Of a stretch of DNA of 64,000 nucleotides, positions 3,001 to 30,497 are shown piece by piece; the stretch's first letter is position 1; each line of letters opens with the position of its first letter. Origin of the DNA: Antrihabitans stalactiti (GTDB lineage Bacteria; Actinomycetota; Actinomycetes; Mycobacteriales; Mycobacteriaceae). A program made the translations under genes and the position numbers. Location: the NCBI RefSeq assembly GCF_012932915.1, contig NZ_VCQU01000001.1:868001-932000 (forward strand). Direction: 5' to 3'. Below the pieces are notes generated by a model. It was given only the letters and a program-made list of their open reading frames with translations, made no database searches and was not told the DNA's origin.

Positions 3001-4719
3001 CGAAGCGACCGTCAACCCGACGACCGCGCCGCTGTCGGACACCATGTGCTCGATCCGGTCCGCCGGGTACGTCGGATCCACCGGCACGAACGCGGCGCCA
3101 GATTTCACCACTGCCCACGTCGCGACCACCGACTCCATCGACCGACCGATCGCCACCGCCACCGTCGAACCCGGACCTGCACCCAAGCCGATCAGCTTGC
3201 GACCCAACCGATTCGACAATTCGTCGAGCTCGCGATAGGTCAACGTTTCCGCATGCCACCGCACCGCAACATGATCCGGATCGACCGCGACGCCGCCGGC
3301 CAGCAGCTCGGGAAGCGTCTGCGGGCGTTGGCTTTCCGGGCCACGTACGGGCAGCAGCTCGCGTCGCTCTTCGTCGGTGAGTACCTGAACCCCTGCCTGC
3401 GGCGCAGCGCCACCGGCCGCCAGGAACCGATGCAGGTACGCGACGAACCTGGCGTGATGGTCGGCGAGTTCTGTAGCGCTGTAGAGATTCGCGTTGGCTT
3501 GGAAGTCGATGTGGGTGGACTCGCCACCCATGCCGGGATAGAGGTTCAAGAACAGGTCGTCGATCAAACCCGAAGTGAGAACGCGCAACCGGCCGGTGAC
3601 CGAGCCGAACTTCAGATTGGTGTCGACCATCATCAGGTTCACCGACGGACCGAACGATGCGGCCTCGTCCAAGGCCCACCCGAGATCGCGGAAGATGTCT
3701 TCCTGGCGGTACCGCTGCCGGCGCAGCGCCCCCGTCAGCTCGGTCTGCGCCTTGAGGATCAACTCCCCCACAGTCGTCTGCTGGTCCAACCGGAGGCGCA
3801 GCGGGACGACGTTCGCGAGCATGCCGCCCGACCGACGCATCACTGCGGTCGTCCGCGCCGACACCGGGAGGCTCAACAGCACCTCGTCGACACCCGCCAT
3901 CCGACCGAGGTACGCGCCGAACGCCGCAACGACGATCGGCGCGATGCTCGAGTTCTGTGCCTTCGCTACAGCATCCAGCAACTCGGCGGTGTCGGCAGGC
4001 AATGAACCCGTCACCAATCGGGGATGGCCGTTCACCTCAGCGGTGCGGCCCGCCAGACTCACCGCATCCGCCATCCCGGCCAAGTGCTCTCGCCAGTATT
4101 CACCGTCGGCCTTGAACCGATCCGACGACCGATACGCCACGTCGGCATCGACGATTTTGCGTAGATCCTCCGCCTTCGACGGCTCCGGCTCCCGGCCCTC
4201 GACCGCGGCGTTGTACAGATCCGAGATCCGGTTGATCAGCGTGACGGCGCCGAACCCGTCGAGCACGATGTGATGAATGCGCGAGTACCAGAAATAGCGA
4301 GAATCGGTGAGGCGAAGGAACGACATTCCGACGAGCCGGTCGCGCAGCAAATCGAGCGGTGCGTTGTACTCCGCCGCCATGAATGCGTGTGCTGCTGCCT
4401 CCGGGTCTGCCTCCGCACGCAGATCGACGGTTTCGACGTGATCGTCGAGGCTGGTGTCGATGATCTGGAACGGCAGATCATCGATCTCGATCAGCCGAAG
4501 GAAGCCGGTCCCGAACTCGCGCCCCGCCTGCTGGCAGCTCCGCTCGAGCAGATCGATGTCGAGATCGCCGTTCAATTCCACGTACTGCGCGATCGAAATA
4601 GGCGCGCTACCAGCGAAATGCTGAGCGAACCAGATGCCGCGCTGCGCCGCCGAAAGCGGAAACGCTCCGGCCGGAATGCCGGACTCGTCGCCGCCTAGCG
4701 GTGTGGATCCCGTGTGCAT
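1..4719 (-). CDS. Non-ribosomal peptide synthetase, N-terminal part (C-A-T-E-C...), runs off the left edge
   Basis: Partial NRPS of 1573 residues in the window; its C-terminus lies outside. Domain order: condensation (HHIVLDG near residue 149), adenylation (YTSGSTG loop near 617), carrier protein (GGDS, phosphopantetheine Ser about 1003), epimerization (HHLVVDG near 1189), then the start of a second condensation domain (PLSPLQ near 1550). The start is the ATG at 4719, matching the N-terminus of the paralogue at 18603. My reading of the ten adenylation specificity positions is D-T-E-E-V-G-S-V-A-K, the same as module 1 of the other NRPS. Two acidic pocket residues might suit a basic amino acid, but I cannot assign the substrate. 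The epimerization domain predicts a D-residue. The N-terminal condensation domain implies an acyl/aryl starter or an upstream donor. It follows a mini-A gene ending at 4947. Confidence 0.95.
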
Positions 4720-4873: not shown

Positions 4874-4907
4874 GCGGTGCGCCGACAAACGCTTGCCGAC
4901 GCACCGC
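4874..4907 (-). other. Inverted repeat between mini-A gene and NRPS gene
   Basis: Arms GCGGTGCG and CGCACCGC enclose 18 bases, with further pairing possible inside. It sits between the mini-A stop (4947) and the NRPS start (4719). No T-run follows on the minus strand, so it is not a textbook terminator. It may be an attenuator or an mRNA-stabilising hairpin. A different hairpin occupies the equivalent place upstream of the other NRPS. Confidence 0.4.
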
Positions 4908-4946: not shown

Positions 4947-5378
4947 TCAGGCGCTCTTCGCACGCTCGATCTCGGTGACATCCGCGTCGGACACGGTCAT
5001 GTACCGACGAACCGTGGACAGATCGTCGAGCAGTAGCCAATCGATCGCGTCGGAAAGGCCATCGCGATGCGACTTGGTCGTGATGCCGACGGTGATCGGC
5101 TGGGCCGCAAGTGGTTCGACACCATCACGCACCGACGCCGGATCGACCTGGGCGATCTTCGCGCCCGACTTCGAGACCGCGCTGCGAGCCACGACAAGTT
5201 CGACCGACGGCGACAGTACGACGGCGACCGCAGTGCCCTGACCGGCGCCGATGCTCATCAGGAGACGAGCGAGCCGGTTCGACCAACGGTCGAGCTCGGT
5301 GGGAATGCGAACGGCCGAAGTGTCCGAGAGCGACGACATGAACGAGGTGACTACTGACGGCTGGATTGTGGTGTTCAT
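4947..5378 (-). CDS. Mini-adenylation protein (A-domain N-terminal fragment), copy 4, 143 aa
   Basis: Small protein of unknown function, related to the start of an NRPS adenylation domain. After a unique N-terminus of about 25 residues it has LDRWSNRLARLLMS (A1-like), then SVELVVARSAVSKSGAK (A2-like), then IDWLLLDDLSTVRRYMT. It ends before the place where the A3 ATP-binding loop would begin. Module 2 of the complete NRPS has the closest visible counterpart (around residues 2007-2125). Without A3-A10 it cannot form acyl-adenylates. Start is the ATG at 5378 behind GGGGAGGAA. It is preceded by the shared promoter cassette and followed 227 bases later by the partial NRPS gene. It could be a subunit, chaperone or decoy for the synthetases, or a decayed domain. 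Four intact copies argue against decay. Confidence 0.85.
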   Translation of the reverse strand: MNTTIQPSVVTSFMSSLSDTSAVRIPTELDRWSNRLARLLMSIGAGQGTAVAVVLSPSVELVVARSAVSKSGAKIAQVDPASVRDGVEPLAAQPITVGITTKSHRDGLSDAIDWLLLDDLSTVRRYMTVSDADVTEIERAKSA

Positions 5379-5465
5379 TTTCAGTTCCTCCCCTTGCTTG
5401 TTCGTTGATTCCACCCTTGTCGAAATCGGCTCCGCCGACCAGGAACCCCAGAGGTGGACACCCAA

Positions 5466-5496
5466 ACCTCAGGGTGTGGGTTGTTCACCCCTGGGT
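5466..5496 (-). promoter_or_regulatory. Shared NRPS-island promoter element, copy 3
   Basis: Read on the minus strand it contains AGGGGTGAACAAC followed by CACACCCTGAGG, the same block as upstream of the mini-A genes at 19162 and 20096. It lies about 90-120 bases before the ATG at 5378. A second conserved block, TCGACAAGGGTGGAATCAAC, follows at about 5403-5422. Here the inner repeat is one base shorter than in the other two copies. It is probably the operator/promoter for the mini-A plus partial NRPS unit. Confidence 0.6.
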
Positions 5497-5511
5497 GGGG
5501 GCAAGGTCGGG

Positions 5512-8500
5512 TCAGGCCGTGGTCCGCGCGCTGCCGATGAACTGATTGATGACCCGAGCAATCTCGGGCAAGGCATCAGGGGCAGCCATTCGGTCGTGCG
5601 TCGAGTCGACGAGGTGGTTCGCCAGTTCGCCACCGATAAAGCCCCGCCAGCTCGCACACGCCGACGCGAGATCGTCGTTGTCCTGCGTCGGTGTGAAGAA
5701 GACCAGGTCACCGTCGAAATGCGTCGGTTCGTAGCCGGCGAGCATCCCGCGAGATCCGTTGTAGCACTCGGTCAACCGCTCGATGTGCTCCGCTTCCACG
5801 AATGCCGCTCCCGGCAGGGCCTGGCTGAGAATATTCGCAGCTTCCGCGGCCGTGAGGTCCATGCGTTCGGCCTGCACACCGAACATCGGCGCGTATTCGT
5901 ATACGAGTTCACCCGGTGTCACCGGAGCGCCGAGGTCGACGTCACGCTTGTCCAGGTCCGCGTCCAGCACTGCCAGCAGGTCGACGTCCTCGCCCAACTC
6001 TCGCAGTCGAACCGCGATCGCTTGTGCGATGTACCCGCCGAGCGACCAGCCGAGCACGTTGTACGGGCCTTTCGGCTGCACTGTTCGCATCTCCGCGACG
6101 TATCGATCGGCGTATGCCTCGACCGACCGTAAGGCATCGCCACCACTGAGTTCCGGCGCCTGGAGGCCGTAAATGGGACGTCCCGGCTCTATCAATTGCG
6201 CGAATCCGGCGTAGCACCACGACAGTCCGGACGCGGGGTGGACGCAGAACAGCGGTGCGCCGTTGCCTGTCAGCCGGATCGGCAGGACGACTCCGATGAG
6301 TGCGTCCGACATCGCGGCGTCCGAGTCCGGCTCCGGCTCAGGCTCTGCGGTTTCTGCGTAGTGGGCGACTGCGCCCAGTGCGGACTTCCACAGCTGTGCG
6401 AGCTCCTCTATGTCGGCGTGGTCGAACAAACCCGCCGGGAAGCCGACTGTCGCATTGAGCCGACCGTCAGCGACAGCCGCATTGATATCGATCGACGCGG
6501 CGGCGGGCATGTCGGGGTCCGGCTCGGCGACCAAATCAGTCAGGTCGTCGGCAGGAACCCAGCCCAAGGTCGCGACCTCAGGTGGCAGGTCGCCGCCGGA
6601 CACCTGGCCGAGGTAATTGAAGCTCACCTGACCTGCGGGAAGTGCCGACAGCTCGGCCTTCGTCTCTTCGCTCAGGTAGCGCAGCATGCCGTAGCCGATG
6701 CCCTTGTCCGGCAGCGCGGCGAGCCGCTGACCAGCCAGCTCGAGCGCCGCACCCATCGCTGGACCGCCTGCCATCGCGTCGTCGGTATCGATCCCCGTCA
6801 GGTCGAAGCGCGCAGGAAACACGGTCGTGAACCAGCCGACGGTCCGGTCCAAATTCGCCCCGGGCACCGCGGCCTCTTCGCGACCGTGACCCTCGATTCG
6901 AATCAACGCGGATGGCTCGTCGACGCCTCGCCGCGCACGCCACGCCGTCACCGCGACCGCGAGCGCCGCGAGGAGACCGTCGTTGACGCCGCCGCGCGTC
7001 ACGGCAGGGACCGCGGTGAGCAGCGACCTCGTGATCTCGCCCGAGACGTCGAGGCGGATCTCCCGGACCGTCGACTTCACATCGACGGCCGGGTCGAACG
7101 CGCGCGTCGACAGCAACGGGTCGGGCCCGTCGACGATGTCGCGCCACAGCGGCATTTCTTCGGCACGCGCGTGGACTCGCTCCGGCTCACGCAGCGCATG
7201 CGCCCAGGTCCGCATCGACGTTCCGCTAGCAGCCAACTCGGGCTGTTGGCCTGCAGTCCGGTGTGCCCACGCTGTCACGAAGTCCGGCACCAGGATTCGC
7301 CACGACACACCGTCGACGGCGACGTGGTGCACGACGACGATCAATCGACCGATCGGGTCCAGCCACACGCACTGCAGCACAACACCGTCGGCAGGCTGCA
7401 GCCGTCCGACCGCCGCATTCAGTTCGGCCGTCGCGATCGTCGTCAGTTCGGCCGGCGACATGGTCGCGTCGACCTCGACCCGATGCACCAGGCTGTCGAC
7501 ATCGACCGAGCCTGGCGGCAAGGTTTCCAGCCGCAACCCGGATTCCTCGTCGGTCAACCTGGCCCGCAGCATGTCGTGCCGGTCGACGACGGCCGCAACG
7601 GTGGCGACGACACCGTCGCGGTCGATGCCGACCGGCAAGCGCAGCACCACTGATTGTGCGAAGCGGCTGTTGCCGCCAGGCTGGCGAAGCAGGTACTCCA
7701 TCACCGGGGTCAACGGGATGTCACCGACACCGCCGCCGGGCATCTCATCCAGGGGCGGCACCGCATCGGCGAGATTCGCGGCAGCCGCTTCGATCAGGCC
7801 CGCGACGGTCCGTCGCTCGAACACATCGCCCGCCGTGATCAGGAAGCCACGCGCCTTCGCCCTCGACACCAGCTGGATCGCGAGGATGCTGTCGCCGCCC
7901 AACTCGAAGAACGAATCGTCGACGCCGACATCGGCAATCCCGAGCACCTGCGCGTACACCTCCACCAGCGCACGCTCGGCGTCGGTTTCGGGCGCACGGA
8001 ACGCGCGCGTCTCGAATACCGGCGCTGGCAATGCCTTTCGGTCCAGCTTGCCGACCGCAGTGAGCGGGATTGCAGCCAGCTCGACGATCGCGGTCGGCAC
8101 CATGTAGTTCGGCAACTGGGCGGCAAGGCGCTCCTTCAAGCCGGTCGGATCGATCGTGGCGCCCGAGGTCGGGACGACATAGGAGACGAGCACGGTGGCG
8201 CCGGATGGTCCGTCGACGCCGAGCGTCGTGGCGAATTCGACGTCGTCCTCGCGCATCAGGGCGGCGTCGATCTCGCCGAGCTCGATGCGCAGCCCGCGCA
8301 CCTTGACCTGGAAGTCGCTGCGGCCCACGTAGTCCAGGGTGTAGTCGTGGGTCCAGCGCACGACGTCACCGGTGCGATACATCCGCTGCGACGGATCGAA
8401 GGGATTGGCCACGAAGCGGCTCGCGGTCAGGTCCGGGCGGAGGTGATAGCCACGCGCCAACGCCGGACCGGCGAGATACAGCTCACCCGCGATGCCCATC

Positions 8501-11500
8501 GGGACCGGCCGCAGCCGCTCGTCGAGCACGAGCGCAGCGCTGCCGGTCACCGGTCCGCCGATGGTGATCGGCGCACCGTTCTTCAGTGGCGTCGAACCCG
8601 TTGCCCAGATGGTGAACTCGGTCGGGCCGTACAGGTTGATCAGCGCACGCCCATCGGCCCACCGGCCGACGAGGTCCGGGCTGACTGCTTCACCGGCGAC
8701 GGCCAGAACAGCGAGCCCCGCGACCTCGGCAGGGTCGATCGACGACAGCGCGGACGGCGTGATCACCGCGTGCGAGACCGCGTGCTCGCGGATGAGATCG
8801 GCCAGGTCGCTACCGCCGAACACGGTTGCCGGCGAGACGATCAGGGCCGCCCCCGCTCCGAATGCCATCGTCATCTCGAACAACGATGCATCGAAGCTGG
8901 GTGACGCGACCTGCAGCACACGCGACTCGGCGTCGAGCTGAATCCCTTCGCGCTGTGCCCGAACCAGATTCGCGATACCGCGGTGCGTGACGACGACACC
9001 CTTAGGCAGCCCGGTCGATCCCGACGTGTAGATGACGTACGCAGCGGTGTCGAGCCGAGTTGCACCGAGTAGTTCGCTCGCGGCAATCGGTGCCGGAGAC
9101 ACCGTCGCCATGCGCTCGACGACGCTGTCGTCGTCGGCGACGAGCCAGGAGACGTTGTCCGGCAATCGGCGTCGATCGACCTCCACCGTCACACCGACGG
9201 TGGCACCGCTATCGGTGAGCATGTGTTCGATCCGCTCCGCCGGATGGTTGGGGTCGATCGGGACGAACGCAGCCCCGGTCTTCGCGACAGCCCAGACCGC
9301 GACGATCGGTTGCAGCGACCGTTTGAGGGCAAGCGCAACGACCGACTCCGGACCTGCTCCTGCCTGGATCAGCAGCCGCGCAAGCTGGTTGGATCGCTCG
9401 TCGAGTTCGCGGAAGGTCAACGTTGTCGACCCGGCGACGACGGCCGTCCGTTCAGCGTAAGTCTGTGCGGCAGCCCCGAACAGCTCGGCAAGCGTGATCG
9501 GCTCCACGCCAGCGCTGCCGGTGACGGGCACCAGGGCCGCTCGTTCGATGTCGTCGAGTAGATCGACGCTGCCGACCAGCATTTCCCGATTCGTGCAGAT
9601 CGCCTCCAGGATTCGGGTGAACCACGTGCCGAAGCGATGGGCTGTGTCGGGGGAGAACAAGTCTGTCGCGTAGGTCAATTCACCGTCCAGCCCGCCCTCG
9701 GACCCATCGGCCGCAAATCGCTCCCGCAACGTCAACGACAAATCGAACTGCGACGAATCCCGTTGCAGATCTTCGACGGTGACGGTCAATCCACCCAGAT
9801 CGATCACCGGCTCGGCGAAGTTCTGCAACGACAACGACACCTGGAAAATCGGGTGGTGCGCCGTCGACCGCACCGGATTCAGCGCCTGCACCAACCGCTC
9901 GAACGGCACATCCGCGTTCGCGAACGCATCGAGATCCCTGGTGCGGACCTGGTCGAGCAACTCGGCGAACGTCATGTCCGGCTCGAGCTGCGCTCGCAAG
10001 GCGAGTGTGTTGACGAACATCCCGACCACATCGTCGAGGACCTGCTCACCTCGACCCGCGATAGGTGTGCCGATCGTGACGTCCTGAGTCGAGCCGATTC
10101 GCGCGAGAAGTATTGCGAGCGCGGCGTGCACCACCATGAACACGCTGACGTTCTCGGCTCGTGCCCGCTCGACCACGCGGGCATGGGTGCCCGCATCGAT
10201 AGCGAACGGCAGGTCCACGCTGTGTGCCGACTGCACCGCAGGCCGCGGCTTGTCGATCGGCAACTCGAGCTGGTCCGGCAGGTCGGCCAGGTTCGTCTTC
10301 CAGAAGTCGATCTGCTTGGCCGACAACGATTCCGGATCTGATTCCTCGCCGAGGACCTCCCGCTGCCACAACGCGAAGTCCGCGTACTGCACCTCGAGCG
10401 GATCCCAGAACGGTGCCACGCCCGCGGCCCGCGCCGCGTACGCGCTGACGAGATCGCGTGCCAACGGCGTCATCGACGTGCCGTCGGCGCTGATGTGATG
10501 CACGACCAACACCACGACGTGCACCTGTGGGGCCACCTGGAACAGCCTCGCCCGCAACGGCGTTTCACGGGTGATGTCGAACCCGGTCCCCGCCACCTGG
10601 CGGACCGCAGCGCTCAATTCGCCCAGGTCGGTGATGATGTCAGGCATCAGGTCCGGAGTCGATCCGCTTGCAGCCACGATCTGCTGGACCGGACCGGCGT
10701 CGTCGGACGGGTAGACCGTCCGCAGCGTCTCGTGCCGCTCGATCACATCGGCGACCGCGGTCTGCAACGCAGCGACGTCCAGCGGTCCCGTCAAGCGAAG
10801 CGCCGCAGTGATGTTGTACGTGGCAGAGCCGGGATCGAGCTGATTGATGATCCACATCCGTTGCTGCGCAAACGACAAGAGCACTCGGTCCGGCCGCTCG
10901 CGAGCCATCAGCACCTGGCGTTCGGTGCCGCCACCGGTGGAGATTCGCATCGCGAGCAGCGCCGTCGTCGGAGCGTCGAACAGGTCACGCAGCGTCACCG
11001 ACGAACCCAATGCGGCATTGATCCGGGCGATCACCCGCGTCGCGATCAACGAGTTACCGCCGAGATCGAAGAACGACGCGTCGATACTGACCCGCTCGAC
11101 CTCGAGCACCTCGGCGATCACGTTTGCCACCGCACGCTCGACGTCGGTGCGCGGCGCGAGGTACTTGCGACTCGTGGCCGCAAAGTCCGGCACTGGCAAC
11201 GCTTTCCGGTCCAGCTTGCCGACGGGGGTCAGCGGAATGTCATCGAGTACGACGATGAAGCCAGGCACCATGTAGCCGGGCAACGTCGTCGCGATCCGCT
11301 CCCGCAAGCGCTCGGTATCCAGCGTGATCCCCTGTGCAGGGAGCACATACGACACCAGTACGGTCGACCCCGCCGGACCCGCCCGACCGATCGTCGCCGC
11401 ATACTCGACCTCGTCGTCACGCGATAGCACGGCATCGATTTCGCCGAGCTCGATCCGCAGACCGCGAATCTTGACCTGGAAGTCGCTGCGGCCCATGTAT

Positions 11501-14500
11501 TCCAACTCGAGCGCATCGGGTGCCCAGCGCACCATGTCGCCGGTCCGATACATCCGCTCCCCCGGCGCACCGTACGGATTCGCGATGAACCTGGTCGAGG
11601 TCATCTCCATGCGGTTGAAGTAGCCGCGGGAAAGACCTGGTCCGGCGAGGTACAGCTCGCCAGACACTCCCCTCGGGACCGGACGCAACCACGAGTCGAG
11701 CACCATCAGCGATGCGCCACGGATCGGTCCGCCGATCGTGACGACCTGGCCGGCGGCCATCTTGCCCGACCCGGTGGCCCAGATACTGAATTCGGTCGGT
11801 CCGTACAGGTTCACCAGTGACCGGCCGGGCGACCAGCGCTCGACCAGCTCCGGCCCAGATGCTTCGCCTGCAACCGCGAGGGTCTGCAGGTCGTCGAGGC
11901 CGGCAGGGTCCATCGTGGCCAACGCCGACGGTGTGATGACAGCGTGCGTCACGCCCTCGGTCCGCAAGAGATTCTCGAGGTCGGGGCCGCCGTATACCTC
12001 CGGCGGCGCGATGACGACCCGTGCACCGGAACCATGTGCGCACAGCAGCTCGAACACCGACGCGTCGAAGCTCGGCGAGGCGACCTGCAGGACGCGCGAC
12101 GACGCGGTCAGTGCGAGCGATTCCCGTTGCGCCTCGGTCAGATTCGCCAGACCACGGTGCGTCAACAGCACCGCCTTCGGCTTGCCCGTCGAGCCGGACG
12201 TGTAGATCAGGTACGCGGTCTGGTCGACGTGGATCGTTGCGCCGCGTTCCGCGTCCGTGATCGGCGCATCGGAGATCGTCATGACACGACGGATCGTGTT
12301 CATGTCGTCGAGCAACAGCCAGTCGATCGAGCCGGGCAGGCTCTGCCCCAATGCTGTGGTGGTGATGCCGATCGTCGCCTGCGAATCGGTCACCATATGT
12401 TCGATGCGCTCCGGCGGATGATTGGGATCCATCGGTGCGAAGGCCGCTCCGGTTTTGGCGACCGCCCAGATACCGACCACCGATTCCATGGACCGCGTCA
12501 ACGCAAGCGCAACGAACCGGTCCGGGCCGACGCCGCGGCGCAGCAGCACGCGGGCGAGCCGGTTGGACCAGCGGTCCAGCTCGCGGAACGTCAGCGCCGT
12601 GTCACCCGAAATCGCCGCGACAGCATCGGGATCGATGCGAGCAGCGTTGGCGAAGATCTCCGGCATGGTGACGAAGTCGATCGACGGCGGCCCGACCACC
12701 GGAAGCAATTCACTCCGCTCGGCCGCATCGCAGGACTGCAGCGACGCCACTCGCGCCGTGGGGTTTTCGGCGATCTGCGTCAGCATGTTGACGAACCGGT
12801 CGAGCAGCACCGTGGCTGCTGTACGGCCCGTTTCGTCGGCGATGTACTTCAGCGCGATCCGCAGGGTGCCCGAATTTTCGGGAATCACCATGAGGTTCAA
12901 CGGATACGGCGTCGCGTCCGTGCCTTCGATCGCAACGATCCGCATCCCGGCGATGTCCATCGTCGCCGCAAGCGCATCAGTGTCGATCGGGTACGACTCG
13001 AAAACCGTGAGAGTGTCGAACAATTCGGGCAAACCGACGGCCTGGTGGATATCGGCCAACCCGATGTGCTGATGGTCCAGCATCGTCGCCTGGTTCGACT
13101 GAATCCGCACCAGCAACTCGGTCACCGTCTCGGCCGGGTTCAACTGCACCCGAACGGGAACGGTGTTGATGAACAACCCGACCATGTCCTCGACACCCGC
13201 CAGCTGCGGCGGCCGACCCGAGACCGTCCCACCGAACACCACATCGGTCCGACCGGTCAACATGGCAAGCAGCAACGCCCACGCCGCCTGGACCGCCGTA
13301 TTGACTGTGACGCCAAGTGATTTGCCCAGGTCGGTCAGTGCCGCAGCCGTGTCCATCGAAAGCTCGGTCTCGACCTGACCGGTTTCCGTCGACTCGATAT
13401 CGGCCAGGCTCGGGACTGCGCGGGTCGGTGCATCGATTCCGGACAACGCCTCCGCCCACGCCGCTTTCGACGCAGCCAAATCCTGGTCGTTCAGCCACGC
13501 CAGGAACTCCTTGTAGGACCGTGCGGGCGGCAGTACGGACATGTCACCCGAGGTCACGTACAGCGTCAACAACTCTTTGACCAGCAGCGGTGTCGACCAA
13601 CCATCCAGCGCAACATGGTGATTGGTGAGCAACAACTTGAACGTATCGGCGCCGGTGCGGATGAATGTGAAGCGCAGCAACGGTGGCTGCGTGAGATCGA
13701 AACGAGTGCTCGCGTCGGCGGCGACGACCCGTTCCAGCTCGAGTGCGCGTTCGTCTTCGTCCGCGATCGTCGTGAGATCAACCTCAGTCCAGGGCAATTC
13801 GGCTTCGGGCAGCACGATCTGGCGCGGTCCGTCGACGGTCTCGACGAACGCCACGCGCAAGTTCTCGTGCCGGACGACCAAGCCCTGCCCGGCCTTTCGC
13901 AGGCGCTGCGCATCGACGGCACCTTCGAGGGTCAGGGTTGCCTGGACCGTGTAACCGTCGGCGGTGTCGGTGTCGTAGAGCGCATGGAACAACAGGCCGA
14001 ACTGCAGCGGCGAGAGCGGCCAGGCGTCGATCATGGTGGGGTACTTGGCCTCCCACAACTCGATCTGCGCCTGCGTCGCATCGATCAGACCGAAATCCGA
14101 CGGCGAGCGTCCGCCTGCAGACTCGGTCTGCGCGTGCTCGGCGAGTGCGGCCAACGCCTCGCCCCACAATTCAGCGAGTTCAGCGACGTCTTCGGCATCG
14201 ATGATCTTCGACGCATAAGCCCACGTGACCGCGATTCGCGCGCCGTCGCCGGTGTCCTCGGTGATCGCGTTGATGTCGATCACCGCAGGCAGAGCCATCT
14301 GCGGGTCCTGCGTCGAGGCGAATCTGCGCGGGACGAACGGTCCGTCGGAGCCTCCGGTTCCCGAGCGGCCCAGGTAGTTGAAGCTGATCTGCGGTGTGGG
14401 ACCTGCCGCGAGGAGCGATCCGGCCTCAGCGTCGAGGTAGCGCAGCATTCCGTAGCCGACACCACGGTCCGGGACCGAGCGCAACTGCTCCTTGATCGCC

Positions 14501-17500
14501 TTGATCGACGCACCCGCCGACGGACCGCCGGCAAACGCATCGTCGAGGTAGATGGCTGAGAGGTCCAGCGCGATCGGATACACGCTGGTGAACCAGCCGA
14601 CCGTCCGAGCGATGTCGGCGCCGGGGACAACGTTCTCTTCGCGACCATGCCCTTCGAGCGTCAGAAGCGTTGACGTGCTGTGAATTCCGCGGTTGTAACG
14701 CCACCGCGTCACAGCCATCGCGAGCGCCGTCAGCAATGCGTCGTCGGCACCACAGTGAAAGCGCTCCGGCACCTGGGTCAGCAGAACGCCTGCGACGTTC
14801 GCAGGAATCGTCGTCTCGATGTGCTGCATCGTCGAATACACGTCGACCACCGGATCGATCGCCCGCTCGCCGAGGATCGGATCCTCCGTGGCCAGAATCG
14901 CCTGCCACGCAGGGAGTTCCGCTGTGCGCATGAGAAGTTGCGCGGTGTCGCGCTGCCCGTGCGCCCAGCGCCGGAACGACGTTGCGACCGGCGCCAACGA
15001 GGGCTCTTGGCCGCCGACGATCTGCGTCCATGCGGTCGCGAAGTCTGGCAACAGGATTCGCCAAGACACACCGTCGACCACCAGGTGATGCAACACCATC
15101 CACAAGAGTCCGTCGGCGCCGACGGAGTCAAGCCACACGAATCGCGCGACCGCGCCCGCGTGCGGATTCAGCAGGTCCGCGGCGCGCTGCAACTCCCGCT
15201 CGACCGAGAATTCGTCGATAGGGCCGACGACATGATCGAGCAGTGTTGCCGCATCGATGGTCCTCGGCGGATCGACGACGATCTGCCAACCACCGTCGGC
15301 GTCGGTCACCAGCCGCGACCGCAGCATGTCGTGCCGATCGAGCAGGGCCTGCACCGCACCGGCGAGATTCGCCTCGTCCACACCAGGCGGCAACGGCAGC
15401 AACACCGACTGACTGAAGCGGTCGAAGGATCCGGCCGTCTCGACCATCGCCGCGATCACCGGCGTAATGGGCACCTCGCCCACGCCACCGCCCGGCAACT
15501 CCACAAGCGCTTGTGCCGCATCCACTACGGTCGCCACCGCCGCGAGACCGGCAATCGTCTTGCGCTCGAACACATCCCGGGCCGAGAATGCCAGACCGGC
15601 AGCCTTCGCCCGCGCGACCAGCTGAATCGAGACGATGCTGTCGCCACCGAGGGCGAAGAAGCTCTCGTCGACCCCCACCGATTCCAACCCCAGCACGTCC
15701 GCGAACAACCGCTCCAACACCTCCTCGCGCGCGTTCGTCGGCGCTCGCCCGACGGTCGATCGTGAGCCGAAGTCGGGTGCAGGCAACGCTTTACGGTCGA
15801 CTTTGCCGACCGGGGTGAGCGGAACCGCGTCGAGCACCATGATCGACGCGGGCACCATGTAGGCGGGCAGGAACTCGCCGACGAACGATTTGAGTTGGTC
15901 GGGAACGATCGCCGCGTCGAGCGTTCCCACGACATACGCCGCGAGTGCCGTGGCGCCGGCGGGAGTCTTGACGCCGATGGTGATCGCGAAGTCGACGTCG
16001 TCGTGCGCCTGCAAGGCTGCGTCGATCTCACCCAACTCGATCCGGTATCCCCGGACCTTGACCTGGAAATCGCTGCGACCCAGAAACTCCAACCACAATT
16101 CGTCGTCGCCACGGTTCCAGCGGACCAAGTCGCCGGACCGATACATCCGCGCACCAGGCGCACCGAACGGATTGGCCACGAACCGATCCGCCGTCTGCGC
16201 AAACCGATTGTGATACCCGCGAGCCAAACCGGGCCCCGCCAAATACAACTCTCCGACCGCACCGATCGGCACCGGCCGCAACTGACCGTCCAGCACCAAC
16301 CCCTCGTGACCACGAACGAGGCTGCCGATCGACACCCGACCACCCGGCACCATCGGAGGTGTAAAGGTGGCTGCCACAGTCGCTTCCGTCGGACCGTAGC
16401 TGTTGAGCAGCCGCTTACCCGTCCACTTCGTCACCAGGTCCGGCGGACACGCGTCACCACCGACGACCACGGACTGCAGGTCGGGGACGCGCTGCGGATC
16501 CAGCGTCGCGACAACCGACGGGGTTCCTTCCAGCACGCTCACGCGGTGTGCTGACAGGACGTCGGCGAGGTCGTCACCGCCGTACAGTCCCGGCGGCACG
16601 ACGGCCAGCGTCGCACCCGCCACGAACGTCATGAACAACTCTTCGATCGAAGTGTCGAAGCTCGGCGATACCGCATGCGCCACAACCGACGCCGCGCTCA
16701 CCTGCAACGCCTCGGCACCGCTGGCAACCATGTTCGCCAGACCGCGGTGGGCGACGACCACGCCCTTCGGCAACCCCGTCGACCCGGACGTATAGATCAT
16801 GTACGCCGCGTCGTCGAGCCGAATCGGCTCGAGCCGCTCGGCATCGGTGATCGCCGCCGCCGAGAAGCCTTCGACGGCATCGAGAATGATCCACTCGACG
16901 TTGTTCGGCAGCCCTTCCCGCGATGCCGAAACCGTCAGCCCCACAACCGCACCGCTGTCGGACACCATGTGCTCGATACGGTCCGCCGGATACGTGGGAT
17001 CCACCGGCACGAACGCCGCCCCAGACTTCACCACACCCCACGTCGCGACCACCGACTCCAACGACCGACCGATCGCCACCGCCACCGTCGAACCCGGACC
17101 TGCACCCAAGCCGATCAACTTGCGACCCAACCGATTCGACAACTCGTCGAGCTCGCGATACGTCAGCGACTCCGCATTCCATCGCACGGCAACATGGTCG
17201 GGATCCACCGCGACACCACGGGCCAACAAGTCGGGCAGCGTTCGTGCTTGCTCACTTGCAGGTCCGCGGACCGGGAGGAGCATCGCCCGTTCGTCGTCGG
17301 TCAGTACGTCGAGCGATGCGAGCGCGGCATCGACGCCGGCGGCGAGGAACGTGTGCAGGAACGCGACGAAGCGGCTGTGCTGGGCTTGCAATTCATCGCG
17401 GGTGTACAGGTTCGGGTTGGCCTGGAAATCGATGTGGGTGCTCTCGCCGCCCATGCCGGGGTACAGATTGATGAACAGGTCGTCGATCAAACCCGAAGTG

Positions 17501-18603
17501 AGAACGTGCAATCTGCCGGTGACCGAGCCGAAGTTCAGCCGAGTGTCGACCATCATCAGGTTCACCGACGGACCGAACGACGCCGCCTCGTCCATCGCCC
17601 ACCCGAGATCGCGGACGATGTCTTCCTGCCGATACCGCTGCCGACGCAAAGCGCCCGTCAACTCGGACTGCGCTTTGAGAATGAGCTCCCCCACGGTCAG
17701 CTGGCCCAACTGCAGCCGCAGCGGCACGACGTTCGCCAGCATGCCGCCCGACCGACGCATCACTGCCGTCGTTCGCGCCGACACAGGGAGGCTCAACAGC
17801 ACCTCGTCGGCACTGGCCATCCGGCCCAGATACGCGCCGAACGCCGCAACGACAATCGGCGCGATGCTCGAGTTCTGTGCCTTCGCAACCACGTCCAACA
17901 ACTCCGCGGTCTCAGCGGGCAACGACCCCGTCACGAGCCGTGGGTGCGCATCGACCTCTGCGGTCCGTCCAGCGAGGCTCACCGCATCCGCCATCCCGGC
18001 CAGATGCTCACGCCAGTACTCACCGTCGGCCTTGAACCGATCCGACGACCGATACGCCGAGTCCGCGTCGACGATCTTCACGAGATCGTCGGCCTTCGAC
18101 GCCTCTGGCTCTCGCCCTTCCACGACGGCGTTGTACAGATCCGAGATCCGGTTGATCAGCGTGACCGCACCGAACCCGTCGAGCACGATGTGATGAATGC
18201 GCGTGTACCAGAAATAGCGGTCGTCGCCGACGCGCAGCAGCGCGACGTTGACGAGGCGGTCAGCGATCAGGTCCAGCGGTGCGCTGTACTCCTCGCGCAT
18301 CCATTCGTGCGCGGCTGCCTCGGGGTCCTGCTCGGTCCGTAGGTCGATCTCGACGACCTCTTCGTCCTGCGTCGTATCGACGACTTGGAAAGGCAGGTCG
18401 TCGATTTCGATCAAACGCAGGAAGCCCGTTCCGAATTCACGTCCGGCGATCCGGCTGCACTCGTTGAGCAGCCCGACGTCCAACACGCCGTTCAGCTCGA
18501 CGTACTGCGCGATGGAAATCGGCGCGCTGCCTGCGAAATGCTGAGCGAACCAGATTCCGCGCTGCGCGGCCGAGAGAGGAAATGGAGCCGAGCCCTGATG
18601 CAT
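5512..18603 (-). CDS. Three-module non-ribosomal peptide synthetase, C-A-T-E / C-A-T / C-A-T-E-TE
   Basis: Complete 4363-residue synthetase. Module 1: C (HHIVLDG, ~137), A (YTSGSTG ~603), T (Ser ~989), E (HHLVVDG ~1172). Module 2: C (HHVALDG ~1662, PLSPLQ start typical of a domain accepting a D-residue), A (~2132), T (Ser ~2518). Module 3: C (HHISADG ~2702), A (~3191), T (Ser ~3572), E (HHVAVDG ~3759). A C-terminal thioesterase follows, with GWSLGG and Ser about 4187. My readings of the pocket residues are D-T-E-E-V-G-S-V-A-K for A1 and D-A-F-V-A-A-L-I-W-K for both A2 and A3. The expected product is a tripeptide of pattern D-X, L-Y, D-Y, perhaps with an N-acyl or aryl cap because module 1 begins with a condensation domain. 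No MbtH-like gene, tailoring enzyme or exporter was seen in the island. Start is the ATG at 18603. Confidence 0.97.
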   Translation of the reverse strand: MHQGSAPFPLSAAQRGIWFAQHFAGSAPISIAQYVELNGVLDVGLLNECSRIAGREFGTGFLRLIEIDDLPFQVVDTTQDEEVVEIDLRTEQDPEAAAHEWMREEYSAPLDLIADRLVNVALLRVGDDRYFWYTRIHHIVLDGFGAVTLINRISDLYNAVVEGREPEASKADDLVKIVDADSAYRSSDRFKADGEYWREHLAGMADAVSLAGRTAEVDAHPRLVTGSLPAETAELLDVVAKAQNSSIAPIVVAAFGAYLGRMASADEVLLSLPVSARTTAVMRRSGGMLANVVPLRLQLGQLTVGELILKAQSELTGALRRQRYRQEDIVRDLGWAMDEAASFGPSVNLMMVDTRLNFGSVTGRLHVLTSGLIDDLFINLYPGMGGESTHIDFQANPNLYTRDELQAQHSRFVAFLHTFLAAGVDAALASLDVLTDDERAMLLPVRGPASEQARTLPDLLARGVAVDPDHVAVRWNAESLTYRELDELSNRLGRKLIGLGAGPGSTVAVAIGRSLESVVATWGVVKSGAAFVPVDPTYPADRIEHMVSDSGAVVGLTVSASREGLPNNVEWIILDAVEGFSAAAITDAERLEPIRLDDAAYMIYTSGSTGLPKGVVVAHRGLANMVASGAEALQVSAASVVAHAVSPSFDTSIEELFMTFVAGATLAVVPPGLYGGDDLADVLSAHRVSVLEGTPSVVATLDPQRVPDLQSVVVGGDACPPDLVTKWTGKRLLNSYGPTEATVAATFTPPMVPGGRVSIGSLVRGHEGLVLDGQLRPVPIGAVGELYLAGPGLARGYHNRFAQTADRFVANPFGAPGARMYRSGDLVRWNRGDDELWLEFLGRSDFQVKVRGYRIELGEIDAALQAHDDVDFAITIGVKTPAGATALAAYVVGTLDAAIVPDQLKSFVGEFLPAYMVPASIMVLDAVPLTPVGKVDRKALPAPDFGSRSTVGRAPTNAREEVLERLFADVLGLESVGVDESFFALGGDSIVSIQLVARAKAAGLAFSARDVFERKTIAGLAAVATVVDAAQALVELPGGGVGEVPITPVIAAMVETAGSFDRFSQSVLLPLPPGVDEANLAGAVQALLDRHDMLRSRLVTDADGGWQIVVDPPRTIDAATLLDHVVGPIDEFSVERELQRAADLLNPHAGAVARFVWLDSVGADGLLWMVLHHLVVDGVSWRILLPDFATAWTQIVGGQEPSLAPVATSFRRWAHGQRDTAQLLMRTAELPAWQAILATEDPILGERAIDPVVDVYSTMQHIETTIPANVAGVLLTQVPERFHCGADDALLTALAMAVTRWRYNRGIHSTSTLLTLEGHGREENVVPGADIARTVGWFTSVYPIALDLSAIYLDDAFAGGPSAGASIKAIKEQLRSVPDRGVGYGMLRYLDAEAGSLLAAGPTPQISFNYLGRSGTGGSDGPFVPRRFASTQDPQMALPAVIDINAITEDTGDGARIAVTWAYASKIIDAEDVAELAELWGEALAALAEHAQTESAGGRSPSDFGLIDATQAQIELWEAKYPTMIDAWPLSPLQFGLLFHALYDTDTADGYTVQATLTLEGAVDAQRLRKAGQGLVVRHENLRVAFVETVDGPRQIVLPEAELPWTEVDLTTIADEDERALELERVVAADASTRFDLTQPPLLRFTFIRTGADTFKLLLTNHHVALDGWSTPLLVKELLTLYVTSGDMSVLPPARSYKEFLAWLNDQDLAASKAAWAEALSGIDAPTRAVPSLADIESTETGQVETELSMDTAAALTDLGKSLGVTVNTAVQAAWALLLAMLTGRTDVVFGGTVSGRPPQLAGVEDMVGLFINTVPVRVQLNPAETVTELLVRIQSNQATMLDHQHIGLADIHQAVGLPELFDTLTVFESYPIDTDALAATMDIAGMRIVAIEGTDATPYPLNLMVIPENSGTLRIALKYIADETGRTAATVLLDRFVNMLTQIAENPTARVASLQSCDAAERSELLPVVGPPSIDFVTMPEIFANAARIDPDAVAAISGDTALTFRELDRWSNRLARVLLRRGVGPDRFVALALTRSMESVVGIWAVAKTGAAFAPMDPNHPPERIEHMVTDSQATIGITTTALGQSLPGSIDWLLLDDMNTIRRVMTISDAPITDAERGATIHVDQTAYLIYTSGSTGKPKAVLLTHRGLANLTEAQRESLALTASSRVLQVASPSFDASVFELLCAHGSGARVVIAPPEVYGGPDLENLLRTEGVTHAVITPSALATMDPAGLDDLQTLAVAGEASGPELVERWSPGRSLVNLYGPTEFSIWATGSGKMAAGQVVTIGGPIRGASLMVLDSWLRPVPRGVSGELYLAGPGLSRGYFNRMEMTSTRFIANPYGAPGERMYRTGDMVRWAPDALELEYMGRSDFQVKIRGLRIELGEIDAVLSRDDEVEYAATIGRAGPAGSTVLVSYVLPAQGITLDTERLRERIATTLPGYMVPGFIVVLDDIPLTPVGKLDRKALPVPDFAATSRKYLAPRTDVERAVANVIAEVLEVERVSIDASFFDLGGNSLIATRVIARINAALGSSVTLRDLFDAPTTALLAMRISTGGGTERQVLMARERPDRVLLSFAQQRMWIINQLDPGSATYNITAALRLTGPLDVAALQTAVADVIERHETLRTVYPSDDAGPVQQIVAASGSTPDLMPDIITDLGELSAAVRQVAGTGFDITRETPLRARLFQVAPQVHVVVLVVHHISADGTSMTPLARDLVSAYAARAAGVAPFWDPLEVQYADFALWQREVLGEESDPESLSAKQIDFWKTNLADLPDQLELPIDKPRPAVQSAHSVDLPFAIDAGTHARVVERARAENVSVFMVVHAALAILLARIGSTQDVTIGTPIAGRGEQVLDDVVGMFVNTLALRAQLEPDMTFAELLDQVRTRDLDAFANADVPFERLVQALNPVRSTAHHPIFQVSLSLQNFAEPVIDLGGLTVTVEDLQRDSSQFDLSLTLRERFAADGSEGGLDGELTYATDLFSPDTAHRFGTWFTRILEAICTNREMLVGSVDLLDDIERAALVPVTGSAGVEPITLAELFGAAAQTYAERTAVVAGSTTLTFRELDERSNQLARLLIQAGAGPESVVALALKRSLQPIVAVWAVAKTGAAFVPIDPNHPAERIEHMLTDSGATVGVTVEVDRRRLPDNVSWLVADDDSVVERMATVSPAPIAASELLGATRLDTAAYVIYTSGSTGLPKGVVVTHRGIANLVRAQREGIQLDAESRVLQVASPSFDASLFEMTMAFGAGAALIVSPATVFGGSDLADLIREHAVSHAVITPSALSSIDPAEVAGLAVLAVAGEAVSPDLVGRWADGRALINLYGPTEFTIWATGSTPLKNGAPITIGGPVTGSAALVLDERLRPVPMGIAGELYLAGPALARGYHLRPDLTASRFVANPFDPSQRMYRTGDVVRWTHDYTLDYVGRSDFQVKVRGLRIELGEIDAALMREDDVEFATTLGVDGPSGATVLVSYVVPTSGATIDPTGLKERLAAQLPNYMVPTAIVELAAIPLTAVGKLDRKALPAPVFETRAFRAPETDAERALVEVYAQVLGIADVGVDDSFFELGGDSILAIQLVSRAKARGFLITAGDVFERRTVAGLIEAAAANLADAVPPLDEMPGGGVGDIPLTPVMEYLLRQPGGNSRFAQSVVLRLPVGIDRDGVVATVAAVVDRHDMLRARLTDEESGLRLETLPPGSVDVDSLVHRVEVDATMSPAELTTIATAELNAAVGRLQPADGVVLQCVWLDPIGRLIVVVHHVAVDGVSWRILVPDFVTAWAHRTAGQQPELAASGTSMRTWAHALREPERVHARAEEMPLWRDIVDGPDPLLSTRAFDPAVDVKSTVREIRLDVSGEITRSLLTAVPAVTRGGVNDGLLAALAVAVTAWRARRGVDEPSALIRIEGHGREEAAVPGANLDRTVGWFTTVFPARFDLTGIDTDDAMAGGPAMGAALELAGQRLAALPDKGIGYGMLRYLSEETKAELSALPAGQVSFNYLGQVSGGDLPPEVATLGWVPADDLTDLVAEPDPDMPAAASIDINAAVADGRLNATVGFPAGLFDHADIEELAQLWKSALGAVAHYAETAEPEPEPDSDAAMSDALIGVVLPIRLTGNGAPLFCVHPASGLSWCYAGFAQLIEPGRPIYGLQAPELSGGDALRSVEAYADRYVAEMRTVQPKGPYNVLGWSLGGYIAQAIAVRLRELGEDVDLLAVLDADLDKRDVDLGAPVTPGELVYEYAPMFGVQAERMDLTAAEAANILSQALPGAAFVEAEHIERLTECYNGSRGMLAGYEPTHFDGDLVFFTPTQDNDDLASACASWRGFIGGELANHLVDSTHDRMAAPDALPEIARVINQFIGSARTTA

Positions 18604-18705
18604 TGAATTTCCCTTACTCGCATTGCGAGAGCACTCGATTGGGTAGGTACCGAGGTCAACGATGAGCGGAAGCGGATGGGTTCAAACGCTACGCGCGCGC
18701 GACGA

Positions 18706-18731
18706 GCTCCGGCAGGAAACCCTGCCGGAGC
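18706..18731 (-). other. Perfect 11-bp stem-loop between mini-A gene and NRPS gene
   Basis: Arms GCTCCGGCAGG and CCTGCCGGAGC flank a 4-base loop. It lies in the 166-base gap between the mini-A stop (18770) and the NRPS start (18603). There is no T-run on the minus strand, so an intrinsic terminator is unlikely. An attenuator, a processing site or an RNA-stability element that sets the mini-A to NRPS ratio would fit. Confidence 0.5.
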
Positions 18732-18769
18732 ATTCGCGGAATATCAGCGGCGCGAGGTGCCGCCCGCTG

Positions 18770-19162
18770 TCAAGCAGCCGGTGCGAGCTCGTTGATCGTG
18801 ACCGGGGCGTCCGAGGTGGTCATGTAGCGGCGAACGGTCGACAGATCGTCGAGCAGCAGCCAGTCGACGTCATTCGAGAGCGTCGCGCGCCGCGCCTTGG
18901 TGGTGACGCCGATCTTGATCGGTGCGTCGGCGGCCGCATCGCCTTGGACCACGATGGCGCCGATCTTCGTGATCGCGGCGCGGGCCACGACCGACTCGAC
19001 GGATACCGCGAGGGCCATGGCGACCGAAGCACCGTCGCGGGCACCGAGGCTCATGAGCAGGCGGGCGAGGCGGTTGGACCACAGCTCCAGCTCGAGCGGT
19101 AGTGCAACGTCAGCAGCGGCGAGGTCGAAGGTGGTCTGGGTCTGGATCGTGGTGGTGGTCAT
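18770..19162 (-). CDS. Mini-adenylation protein, copy 3, 130 aa
   Basis: Second-type member of the small A-domain-like family. It has the N-terminus MTTTTIQTQTT, shared with the copy at 20096, then LELWSNRLARLLMSLGA, a VESVVARAAITKIGA segment and VDWLLLDDLSTVRRYMT, and ends in alanines. It has no ATP-binding loop and no later adenylation motifs. Start is the ATG at 19162 behind CGGAGGAAC. It has its own copy of the shared promoter cassette and is the gene immediately before the three-module NRPS (166-base gap with a strong hairpin). Function unknown; a role tied to the NRPS next to it is inferred from position and homology only. Confidence 0.85.
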   Translation of the reverse strand: MTTTTIQTQTTFDLAAADVALPLELELWSNRLARLLMSLGARDGASVAMALAVSVESVVARAAITKIGAIVVQGDAAADAPIKIGVTTKARRATLSNDVDWLLLDDLSTVRRYMTTSDAPVTINELAPAA

Positions 19163-19247
19163 CGAAGTTCCTCCGTCGTTTCTTTGTTGACTCCAATCTT
19201 GTCGAAACGAGCGGTGAGAACTAGGTGCCCAAGAGGTGGGTGGAGCG

Positions 19248-19276
19248 CCCTGAGGGTGGGTGTTGTTCACCCCTAA
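19248..19276 (-). promoter_or_regulatory. Shared NRPS-island promoter element, copy 2
   Basis: On the minus strand this contains GGGTGAACAACACCC, an inverted repeat (GGGTG/CACCC) with a 5-base spacer, followed by ACCCTCAGGG. It lies 86-114 bases upstream of the ATG at 19162. A downstream block TCGACAAGATTGGAGTCAAC (19187-19206) is identical to the one before the gene at 20096. The element overlaps the stop codon of the mini-A gene at 19273. Confidence 0.65.
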
Positions 19277-19662
19277 GGTGCGACGTCCGGCATTGTCATA
19301 TAGCGACGGACAGTGACCACGTCGTCGAGGATCAGCCAATCGATCGCGTCGGAGAGTCCCGCACGCTGGGCTTTTGTCGTCATTCCGGCGACGATCGGCG
19401 CTGCTGCACCAGGCTCGACGCCTTGTTCGGAGGCGACGGCCTTCGCGCCGGCCTTCGAAATCGCCGTCCGAGCAACGATCGACTCGACCGACGGCGTCAG
19501 CGCCACAGCGACCGCCGTGCCGTGGGTTGCCCCGAGGCTGATCAGCAGGTGGGCGAGGCGGTTGGACCAGCGGTCGAGCTCGGCAGGTACGCGCACAGCG
19601 GACGCGTCGGTCAACGTCGACATGAACGACGCGACTGCCGACTGCGCAACAGTGTCGGGCAT
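19273..19662 (-). CDS. Mini-adenylation protein, copy 2, 129 aa
   Basis: Small A-domain-like protein. It has an N-terminal arm ending in SFMSTLTDASAVRVP (close to that of the copy at 5378), then LDRWSNRLAHLLISLGA, SVESIVARTAISKAGAK, and IDWLILDDVVTVRRYMT. The A3 loop and everything after it are absent. Start is the ATG at 19662 with AGGAGC ahead. It follows the copy at 19689-20096 by 26 bases without a promoter cassette of its own, so the two are probably one transcript. Function unknown. The N-terminal arms divide the family into two types, MTTTTIQTQ-like and SFMSxLxDxSAVR-like. Confidence 0.85.
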   Translation of the reverse strand: MPDTVAQSAVASFMSTLTDASAVRVPAELDRWSNRLAHLLISLGATHGTAVAVALTPSVESIVARTAISKAGAKAVASEQGVEPGAAAPIVAGMTTKAQRAGLSDAIDWLILDDVVTVRRYMTMPDVAP

Positions 19663-19688
19663 CGTGAGCTCCTGAATCTTGAAGCTGG

Positions 19689-20096
19689 TCAGGCGGCCTG
19701 TGCGCGCTCGACCGCGGTGACCGGCGCGTCGGACGAGGTCATGTAGCGGCGAACGGTCGACAGGTCGTCCAGCAGCAGCCAGTCGATGTCGTTCGACAGC
19801 GCCGGGCGGTGCGACTTGGTGGTGACGCCGACCTTGATCGTCTGACCAGCAACGGAGTCGCCGTGGACGACCGTGGCGCCGGTCTTGGTGATCGCGCTGC
19901 GGGAAACGAGCGACTCGACAGAGGCCGTGAGCACCATCGCGACAGGAGCGCCTTCGCGTGCGCCGAGGCTCATGAGCAGGCGGGCGAGGCGGTTGGTCCA
20001 CAGCTCCAGCTCGACCGGCAGTGCGATGTCGGAAGCATCGGTCAGGGTGGTGATGAAAGATGCTGCCGTTTGCGTCTGGATCGTGGTGGTGGTCAT
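19689..20096 (-). CDS. Mini-adenylation protein, copy 1, 135 aa
   Basis: First gene of the island in transcription order. It starts MTTTTIQTQTA, continues with LELWTNRLARLLMSLGA, SVESLVSRSAITKTGATVV and IDWLLLDDLSTVRRYMT, and ends with a short Ala-rich tail. It matches the first quarter of an NRPS adenylation domain, with the segment corresponding to residues about 52-70 of that stretch shortened. The ATP-binding, acid-binding and carrier-interacting parts are all missing. Start is the ATG at 20096 behind CGGAGGAAC. The promoter cassette lies upstream and a second family member is 26 bases downstream. Function unknown. Confidence 0.85.
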   Translation of the reverse strand: MTTTTIQTQTAASFITTLTDASDIALPVELELWTNRLARLLMSLGAREGAPVAMVLTASVESLVSRSAITKTGATVVHGDSVAGQTIKVGVTTKSHRPALSNDIDWLLLDDLSTVRRYMTSSDAPVTAVERAQAA

Positions 20097-20188
20097 CGTG
20101 GTTCCTCCGTCTTGACTGCTTTTCTTGTTGACTCCAATCTTGTCGATTCGGGTCCCCCGAAATAGGTGCCACAGGGGTGGGGTGCACG

Positions 20189-20217
20189 CCCTCAGGGTGG
20201 GTGTTGTTCACCCCTAG
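20189..20217 (-). promoter_or_regulatory. Shared NRPS-island promoter element, copy 1
   Basis: Contains GGGTGAACAACACCC on the minus strand (20199-20213), followed by ACCCTGAGGG. It lies 93-121 bases before the ATG at 20096. The leader block TCGACAAGATTGGAGTCAAC is at 20127-20146. The spacing to the start codon is nearly the same as in the other two copies. This points to one island-specific regulator, possibly of the LuxR/NarL type given the short inverted repeat. No such regulator gene is present in the window. Confidence 0.65.
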
Positions 20218-20260
20218 GTATCGCGTGTTGCTGCCGGCTAAGAGGCCATAGGCTCACCGC

Positions 20261-20752
20261 GTGACCGAATTGCATCCGAACCTCATCGCGCTAGCCCCAC
20301 TGCTCGGCTCGTGGGCGGGTGAGGGGGCTGGCGAATATCCGACGATCGAGTCGTTCGGCTACCTCGAGACCATCACGTTCGGGCACGTCGGCAAGCCGTT
20401 CCTCGCGTACGGCCAGCGCACGAAGGCCGCCGACGACGGTCGACCGCTACACGCCGAGACCGGCTACCTGCGAGTTCCCACAGCTGGACGGGTCGAACTC
20501 GTCCTCGCGCATCCGACGGGAATCACGGAAATCGAGGAAGGCACCGTCACCGAGACGGACGGGACGTTGCATATCGAGCTGCAGACCACGTCGATCGGCC
20601 GCAGCTCGACCGCCAAGGAGGTAACCGCGCTTGCCCGTTCGTTCACGATCAGCGGCGACGAGCTGACCTACCAGGTCCAGATGGGGGCAGTCGGCCAGCC
20701 GTTGCAGCATCACCTCGCCGCGACCTTGCGAAGGCAGCCGCCGACACAGTGA
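20261..20752 (+). CDS. Nitrobindin / THAP4-like heme-binding beta-barrel protein (DUF1794)
   Basis: 163 residues, the usual size of the family. The LAPLLGSWAGEGAGEYPTI segment at residues 10-28 is the family signature. The GYLRVP, ELVLAHPTGITEI and C-terminal HHLAATLRR strands fit a ten-stranded fatty-acid-binding-protein-like barrel, and the C-terminal histidines are where nitrobindins ligate ferric heme. The family binds NO and isomerises peroxynitrite. Start is the GTG at 20261. It is divergent from the NRPS island and is followed 4 bases later by a hydrolase gene, so the two are probably co-transcribed. Confidence 0.85.
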   Translation: MTELHPNLIALAPLLGSWAGEGAGEYPTIESFGYLETITFGHVGKPFLAYGQRTKAADDGRPLHAETGYLRVPTAGRVELVLAHPTGITEIEEGTVTETDGTLHIELQTTSIGRSSTAKEVTALARSFTISGDELTYQVQMGAVGQPLQHHLAATLRRQPPTQ

Positions 20753-30444: not shown

Positions 30445-30497
30445 CCGGTCGACCCTCACTCACCAAACTCACGCGGGACCAGCAAGATAACGAACTT

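Follow-up and report, generated by a model that had tools for sequence, protein, structure and literature searches.

A family of small adenylation-domain-like proteins encoded beside nonribosomal peptide synthetase genes in Antrihabitans, Nocardia and relatives

Nonribosomal peptide synthetases (NRPSs) depend on adenylation (A) domains, and an NRPS adenylation enzyme is recognized by the A3 ATP-binding loop and motifs A4 to A10, including the A10 lysine. Several described groups of small proteins offer points of comparison. MbtH-like proteins (PF03621) are small, non-catalytic and encoded near NRPS genes, and they bind A domains, improving their solubility or activity. Microproteins and dominant-negative truncated paralogues are a known concept. 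TIGR03089, a model of 230 positions, covers proteins of actinobacteria that look like the N-terminal half of an AMP-binding enzyme, and we know of no link between this family and NRPSs. Here, we analyze four small genes, S1 to S4, in a 64,000-nucleotide stretch of the Antrihabitans stalactiti contig NZ_VCQU01000001.1 (the window), where they lie beside two large NRPS genes, NRPS-A and NRPS-B. Their products share features with each of these groups.

The S proteins are most similar to the A domain itself. Each window copy starts inside the N-terminus of the A domain. As described in the original prediction, it spans A1 and A2 and stops just short of the ATP-binding loop. AMP-binding (PF00501) is the only Pfam match, confined to profile positions 25-85 of 384 (E 6e-9 to 3.5e-5). 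S1 and S3 score 35.5 and 33.4 bits, above the cut-off of 29.9, and S2 and S4 score 28.2 and 23.2 bits, below it. None of the 38 aligned S proteins reaches A3. The likeness to the N-terminal lobe of the A-core (PF00501 / TIGR01733) extends from the A1-A2 sequence to the predicted fold, which is that of the lobe, and to a module-2-type origin, but S is free-standing and lacks A3-A10 and the C-terminal subdomain. Because A3-A10 are absent, S cannot activate an amino acid, and its product is predicted to be a small alpha/beta protein. Residues nearly invariant in the compared A domains are not conserved in S, namely the A2 loop with the helix after it (P.DP.YP.ERI.H..DS) and an RS pair. The N-terminal arm had been regarded as unique to the family. 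This did not hold, as relatives elsewhere have a normal A-domain N-terminus at this place, of which the window copies have lost at least 17 residues.

The other groups are less close. S resembles MbtH-like proteins as a small non-catalytic protein encoded near an NRPS, but is derived from the enzyme itself, and Pfam gave no PF03621 match at E<=1 for any of the four proteins in the window. TIGR03089 and S both represent free-standing N-terminal portions of the AMP-binding superfamily; S3 scored 19.5 bits against the TIGR03089 cut-off of 85, and S1, S2 and S4 were unlisted. As with microproteins and truncated paralogues, S corresponds to one domain-sized part of a larger protein and could compete for the contacts of that protein, and no microprotein built from an A domain was found in the literature searched. 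The window copies have no dedicated model in Pfam or NCBIfam. A description of an S-type family was likewise not found in the literature searched, and the family is apparently undescribed so far.

Selection, origin and distribution of the S family

The small-gene observation is real and stronger than first claimed. Substitutions were counted in 14 pairs, with each S used once, and compared to a null in which the same changes were placed randomly on matching bases, keeping the mutation spectrum. Some pairs share internal branches and are hence not fully independent. Synonymous changes numbered 495 (null mean 265, null maximum 306), nonsynonymous changes 515 (null mean 734) and intermediate-stop changes 4 (null mean 15). 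The omega-like ratio of S was 0.37 (Nei-Gojobori pairwise values 0.09 to 0.75) compared to 0.18 for the same region of module 2 (11 pairs), and S is thus less constrained than the enzyme. The non-neutral pattern supports retention of S by selection. This is the outcome that the original prediction had argued for, proposing the ratio of nonsynonymous to synonymous rates across the family as a check. None of the three results named there as grounds for rejection, namely neutral ratios, mostly broken homologues or no tie to NRPS genes elsewhere, was obtained. The same reading is backed by the lack of internal stops among the matches listed and by the NRPS genes downstream of most distinct copies.

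Phylogenies were built from 38 S proteins together with 98 A-domain regions. S formed a single clade, with support of 0.991 in one tree and an ultrafast bootstrap (UFBoot) value of 100 in another. S and 31 of 36 module-2 regions cluster with support of 90. By tree distance, the A region nearest to all 38 S proteins is module 2 of a single NRPS (L069). Within its own locus, S is nearest to the second-numbered A region in 27 of 30 loci, the remaining three comprising two whose NRPS is truncated at the start and one for which a single region is listed. S1 likewise matches module 2 of the complete synthetase NRPS-A best, as first noted (47%, E 2e-28 in a single comparison; modules 1 and 3 reach 40% and 42%). 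The trees indicate that S goes back to a single duplication, in which the first ~140 residues of an A domain of the module-2 type were copied in an ancestor shared by Nocardia, Antrihabitans, Aldersonia and Smaragdicoccus. Similarity was 0.415 to the module 2 of the own locus vs 0.418 to others (p=0.88, 34 pairs). As S is no closer to its own module 2 than to others, these pairs show no sign of gene conversion with the neighboring NRPS. Single-clade origin and the lack of extra similarity to the own NRPS also disfavor S as a source of sequence for A-domain recombination, an option raised initially.

Searches covered the own genome, 101 genomes of relatives, 401 family genomes, 128 genomes of the genus Nocardia and a named genome collection. 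Stand-alone S copies occur in Antrihabitans, Smaragdicoccus, Aldersonia and Nocardia. A total of 89 S gene records were collected, 75 of them distinct, with the window four included. The window four were themselves used to build the family model, so that their very low E-values with it are circular and were not used as evidence. Of the 128 genomes of the genus Nocardia, 100 match at E <= 1e-35, a limit that badly decayed copies would miss, and at least 92 have a match in a frame below 700 amino acids (counted by eye). Homologues elsewhere are not mostly broken: no internal stop was found in the small-gene matches of 92 Nocardia-genus genomes, among the matches listed, and the stops flagged in six Nocardia copies (including L136) are all natural ends. 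Outside these genera, 32 genomes from 21 genera were covered. Matches occurred in 23 of them, and among the matches listed no frame was shorter than 918 amino acids. A related-locus search gave no matches with S1 as single query, and 79 loci, 51 with a stand-alone copy, when queried with a 38-row alignment. A plasmid collection queried with one S protein gave no match. A further A-domain-like open reading frame (ORF) of 144-152 amino acids in the own genome (L064 9986-10444, minus strand; G000 C3:159126) was set aside, having a different start and no element of the kind described below at E<=1 in its own genome; it is possibly a separate stand-alone fragment.

Genomic placement and the shared upstream element

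The S genes are mostly found in front of NRPS genes, which were called by a condensation-domain profile. A same-strand condensation domain starts within 700 nucleotides (nt) downstream of 75 of the 89 S genes, or 63 of the 75 distinct ones. S3 is counted among the 63 even though S2 intervenes, and the remaining ones lie within 335 nt. The placement first reported for the window, with S2 adjoining NRPS-A and S1 adjoining NRPS-B, thus recurs in other genomes. The 12 exceptions are S4 (array head), L232 (contig end), two Smaragdicoccus-genus copies (one of them binned from a metagenome) and eight solitary copies, four each in Antrihabitans and Nocardia. The solitary Nocardia copies are of a distinct type starting with MSKPITPSGDT or similar. 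Downstream of L226, L237 and L256, 2 kb are free of any NRPS condensation domain, as are 1.1 kb downstream of L213. In the own genome, an S-associated NRPS on another contig (C26; L061 12576-19901) is broken by one in-frame TAG while its S gene is intact. The stop may be a sequencing error, or this NRPS may be a paralogue in decay. Seven Nocardia strains are reported to have in common a three-module NRPS with an unpredicted product (PMC4035055), which might be the S-linked NRPS.

The intervals between S and NRPS genes vary in length and structure. Gaps are shorter than 100 nt in 16 of 62 loci, and ten short-gap loci have only ~23-66 nt between the S stop and the NRPS ATG. The best hairpins of the 46 loci with gaps of at least 100 nt have a mean z of -2.3, with z below -2 in 27 of 46. 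An attenuator leader would be expected to have a terminator hairpin at all loci, and this is not the pattern observed. Given the strong hairpins common in long-gap loci compared to the 16 short-gap loci, attenuation may be a lineage-specific addition.

An upstream element connects S to other genes. Three CACCC..GGGTG motifs ~22 bp apart are located 5' of S, followed in many copies by a TCGACAAGATT..GTCAACAA stretch. A sequence-only model (R1) built from 13 elements detects it on the same strand at 85 of 89 S genes (the 13 training elements included) and at 71 of 75 distinct ones. Relative to the estimated S start, the end of the element ranges from 47 nt inside the gene to 56 nt upstream. Model R1 finds no element at S3, L228, L251 and L256, and three of the four solitary Nocardia copies have one. 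In the own genome, R1 detects five S elements and two more on contig C23 (G000 C23:139262-139332 and 142937-143023, L117; E 1.8e-6 and 8e-4), preceding a chorismate-mutase-like ORF and an alpha/beta hydrolase ORF. Across several genera (L171-L200), the element also precedes NRPS genes without S as well as hydrolase, FAAL-like, SigD-like sigma-factor and ABC ATPase genes. These gene names were read by eye from translations. The element is probably a promoter. A sigma-70 promoter scan of positions 18550-20350 of the window found none.

A gene for a protein with FHA and LuxR-type helix-turn-helix domains (FHA-LuxR) sits between the two C23 elements. Orthologues with at least 67% identity occur in 24 of 32 genomes tested. 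The element is present in 22 of these 24 and absent in G024 and G029. Eight genomes are without a close orthologue, and the three of them that were searched (G011, G031, G033) have no element. In 10 of the 22 genomes, an element and the FHA-LuxR gene are no more than ~5 kb apart, based on coordinates compared by hand, with two of the ten linkages resting on weak element matches (E 0.0016 and 0.0041). Co-occurrence and linkage support FHA-LuxR as a putative activator of the element, and the C23 elements together with the FHA-LuxR gene are a candidate regulon of specialised metabolism. The FHA plus LuxR type originated in the ancestor of Rhodococcus and Nocardia, according to PMC3466318.

Organization of the window locus

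The four genes are intact, encoded on the minus strand and located where the original prediction had placed them (Table 1). The strong ribosome sites described there were also recovered, with GGAGGAA at S1, S2 and S4 and AGGAG at S3, as were the two recurring arm types, of which type a (MTTTTIQTQT) is shared by S2 and S4, and type b by S1 and S3. Codon usage of S in the window is nothing unusual. S1 is flanked by the two large NRPS genes, and S4, S3 and S2 form an array 5' of NRPS-A with 26 nt between S4 and S3. The S3 stop codon falls within the S2 upstream element, at 19273-19279, and S3 has a shortened C-terminus without the usual tail, an arrangement suggestive of a tandem-duplication junction. 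A THAP4-like heme-binding (nitrobindin-type) protein is encoded next to the array (20261-20752, plus strand), and a nitric oxide synthase oxygenase domain is encoded at 29287-30459 (minus strand).

Table 1. Features of the S locus, in window coordinates
Feature	Position	Strand	Description
NRPS-B	1..4719	-	5' part, start near 4719, leaves window at left edge
Hairpin S1/NRPS-B	4874..4907	-	strong, -29.0 kcal/mol, z -4.2; terminator- or attenuator-like, no T tract
S1	4947..5378	-	143 amino acids, A-domain N-lobe protein, arm type b
S1 upstream element	5401..5498	-	model R1, 69.9 bits; training sequence
NRPS-A	5512..18603	-	4363 amino acids, three modules: 3 AMP-binding, 5 condensation-type, 3 PP-binding, 1 thioesterase
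Hairpin S2/NRPS-A	18706..18731	-	strong, -32.0 kcal/mol, z -7.1
S2	18770..19162	-	130 amino acids, arm type a, immediately 5' of NRPS-A
S2 upstream element	19183..19279	-	model R1, 69.2 bits; training sequence
S3	19273..19662	-	129 amino acids, arm type b, second gene of S4-S3 pair
S4	19689..20096	-	135 amino acids, arm type a, heads S4-S3-S2 array
S4 upstream element	20124..20220	-	model R1, 72.9 bits; training sequence

Possible roles of S

We suggest that S represents a dedicated family of 'A-domain N-lobe miniproteins', which was copied once from a module-2-type A domain and then kept by selection. S would be transcribed from the triple-motif element that also precedes NRPS genes, with FHA-LuxR as the putative activator. 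Because solitary copies with their own element exist, S would work in trans as a protein. The most likely action would be to mimic the N-terminal lobe of the module-2 A domain and to dock where that lobe packs. Docked S might tune folding, assembly or activity of the synthetase, with an effect of either sign. S probably helps or restrains the NRPS, and may be either the chaperone or regulatory subunit or the competitive decoy suggested in the original prediction. The whole account, combining a selected single-origin family, an element shared with the NRPS and a trans-acting mimic of the module-2 lobe, is held tentatively and at slightly less than even confidence. S could also be a new class of NRPS accessory factor, whose members are enzyme-derived mimics of the N-terminal lobe and dock on the megasynthetase, for example on the module-2 condensation-adenylation (C-A) platform or on a factor recognising that lobe, and gate the tri-modular line under an FHA-LuxR phospho-signal. 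This remains a doubtful proposition.

Several observations weigh against the N-lobe mimic account. The weaker constraint on S compared to module 2 (0.37 vs 0.18) is one, and the lack of covariation between S and its own module 2 is another. Three of four solitary Antrihabitans copies adjoin unrelated genes (a cutinase and ABC exporter, a DUF4139 protein and valS), and the flanking ORFs tried at the fourth had no Pfam match. Since same-element NRPSs without an intervening S occur (G003, G001, G046, G023, G038), an NRPS with this element does not need an adjacent S.

Alternative roles would explain parts of these data. S might be a folding chaperone or activator of A domains, MbtH-like in action but built from a piece of the A domain. 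S is the first gene before the NRPS and no MbtH gene lies near the S-NRPS locus, yet all 14 genomes tested encode MbtH elsewhere. Together with the missing PF03621 match and the solitary S copies, this makes a chaperone rather unlikely. The solitary copies would instead fit a protein acting on the regulator or other regulon members, for instance as a feedback signal for FHA-LuxR. Such a target would account for the element being common to S and hydrolase, FAAL-like, sigma-factor and chorismate-mutase-like genes, and for the co-occurrence and linkage of element and FHA-LuxR gene. The clustering of S with module-2 A domains and the NRPS genes within 700 nt behind 63 of 75 distinct copies render this reading improbable.

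S might mainly be a cis leader, with translation of the short ORF and the following hairpin setting read-through into the NRPS. The hairpins of the long-gap loci favor such attenuation, but the 16 loci with gaps below 100 nt, the selection acting on the protein and the absence of an NRPS behind solitary copies leave it little room. Decaying duplicates, or a sequence store for A-domain recombination, would be consistent with the derivation of S from an A domain, the loss of near-invariant residues and the faster evolution of S compared to module 2. Selection and single origin contradict this reading. The intact frames among the matches listed, the lack of extra similarity to the own NRPS and the absence of S from the 32 genomes of other genera, among the matches listed, also speak against it, and we give it almost no credence.

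If S is such a signal-gated accessory factor, a single type of signal-controlled promoter would drive both the megasynthetase and a regulator made from part of it. NRPS engineering relies on knowing which A-domain surfaces have contacts beyond catalysis. A selected, free-standing piece of the lobe with kinship to one module type hints at such a surface, and would provide a natural probe. The common upstream element offers a handle on a possible regulon of specialised metabolism. The family is present in at least 92 of 128 sampled Nocardia-genus genomes, yet the window copies are without a Pfam or NCBIfam model of their own.
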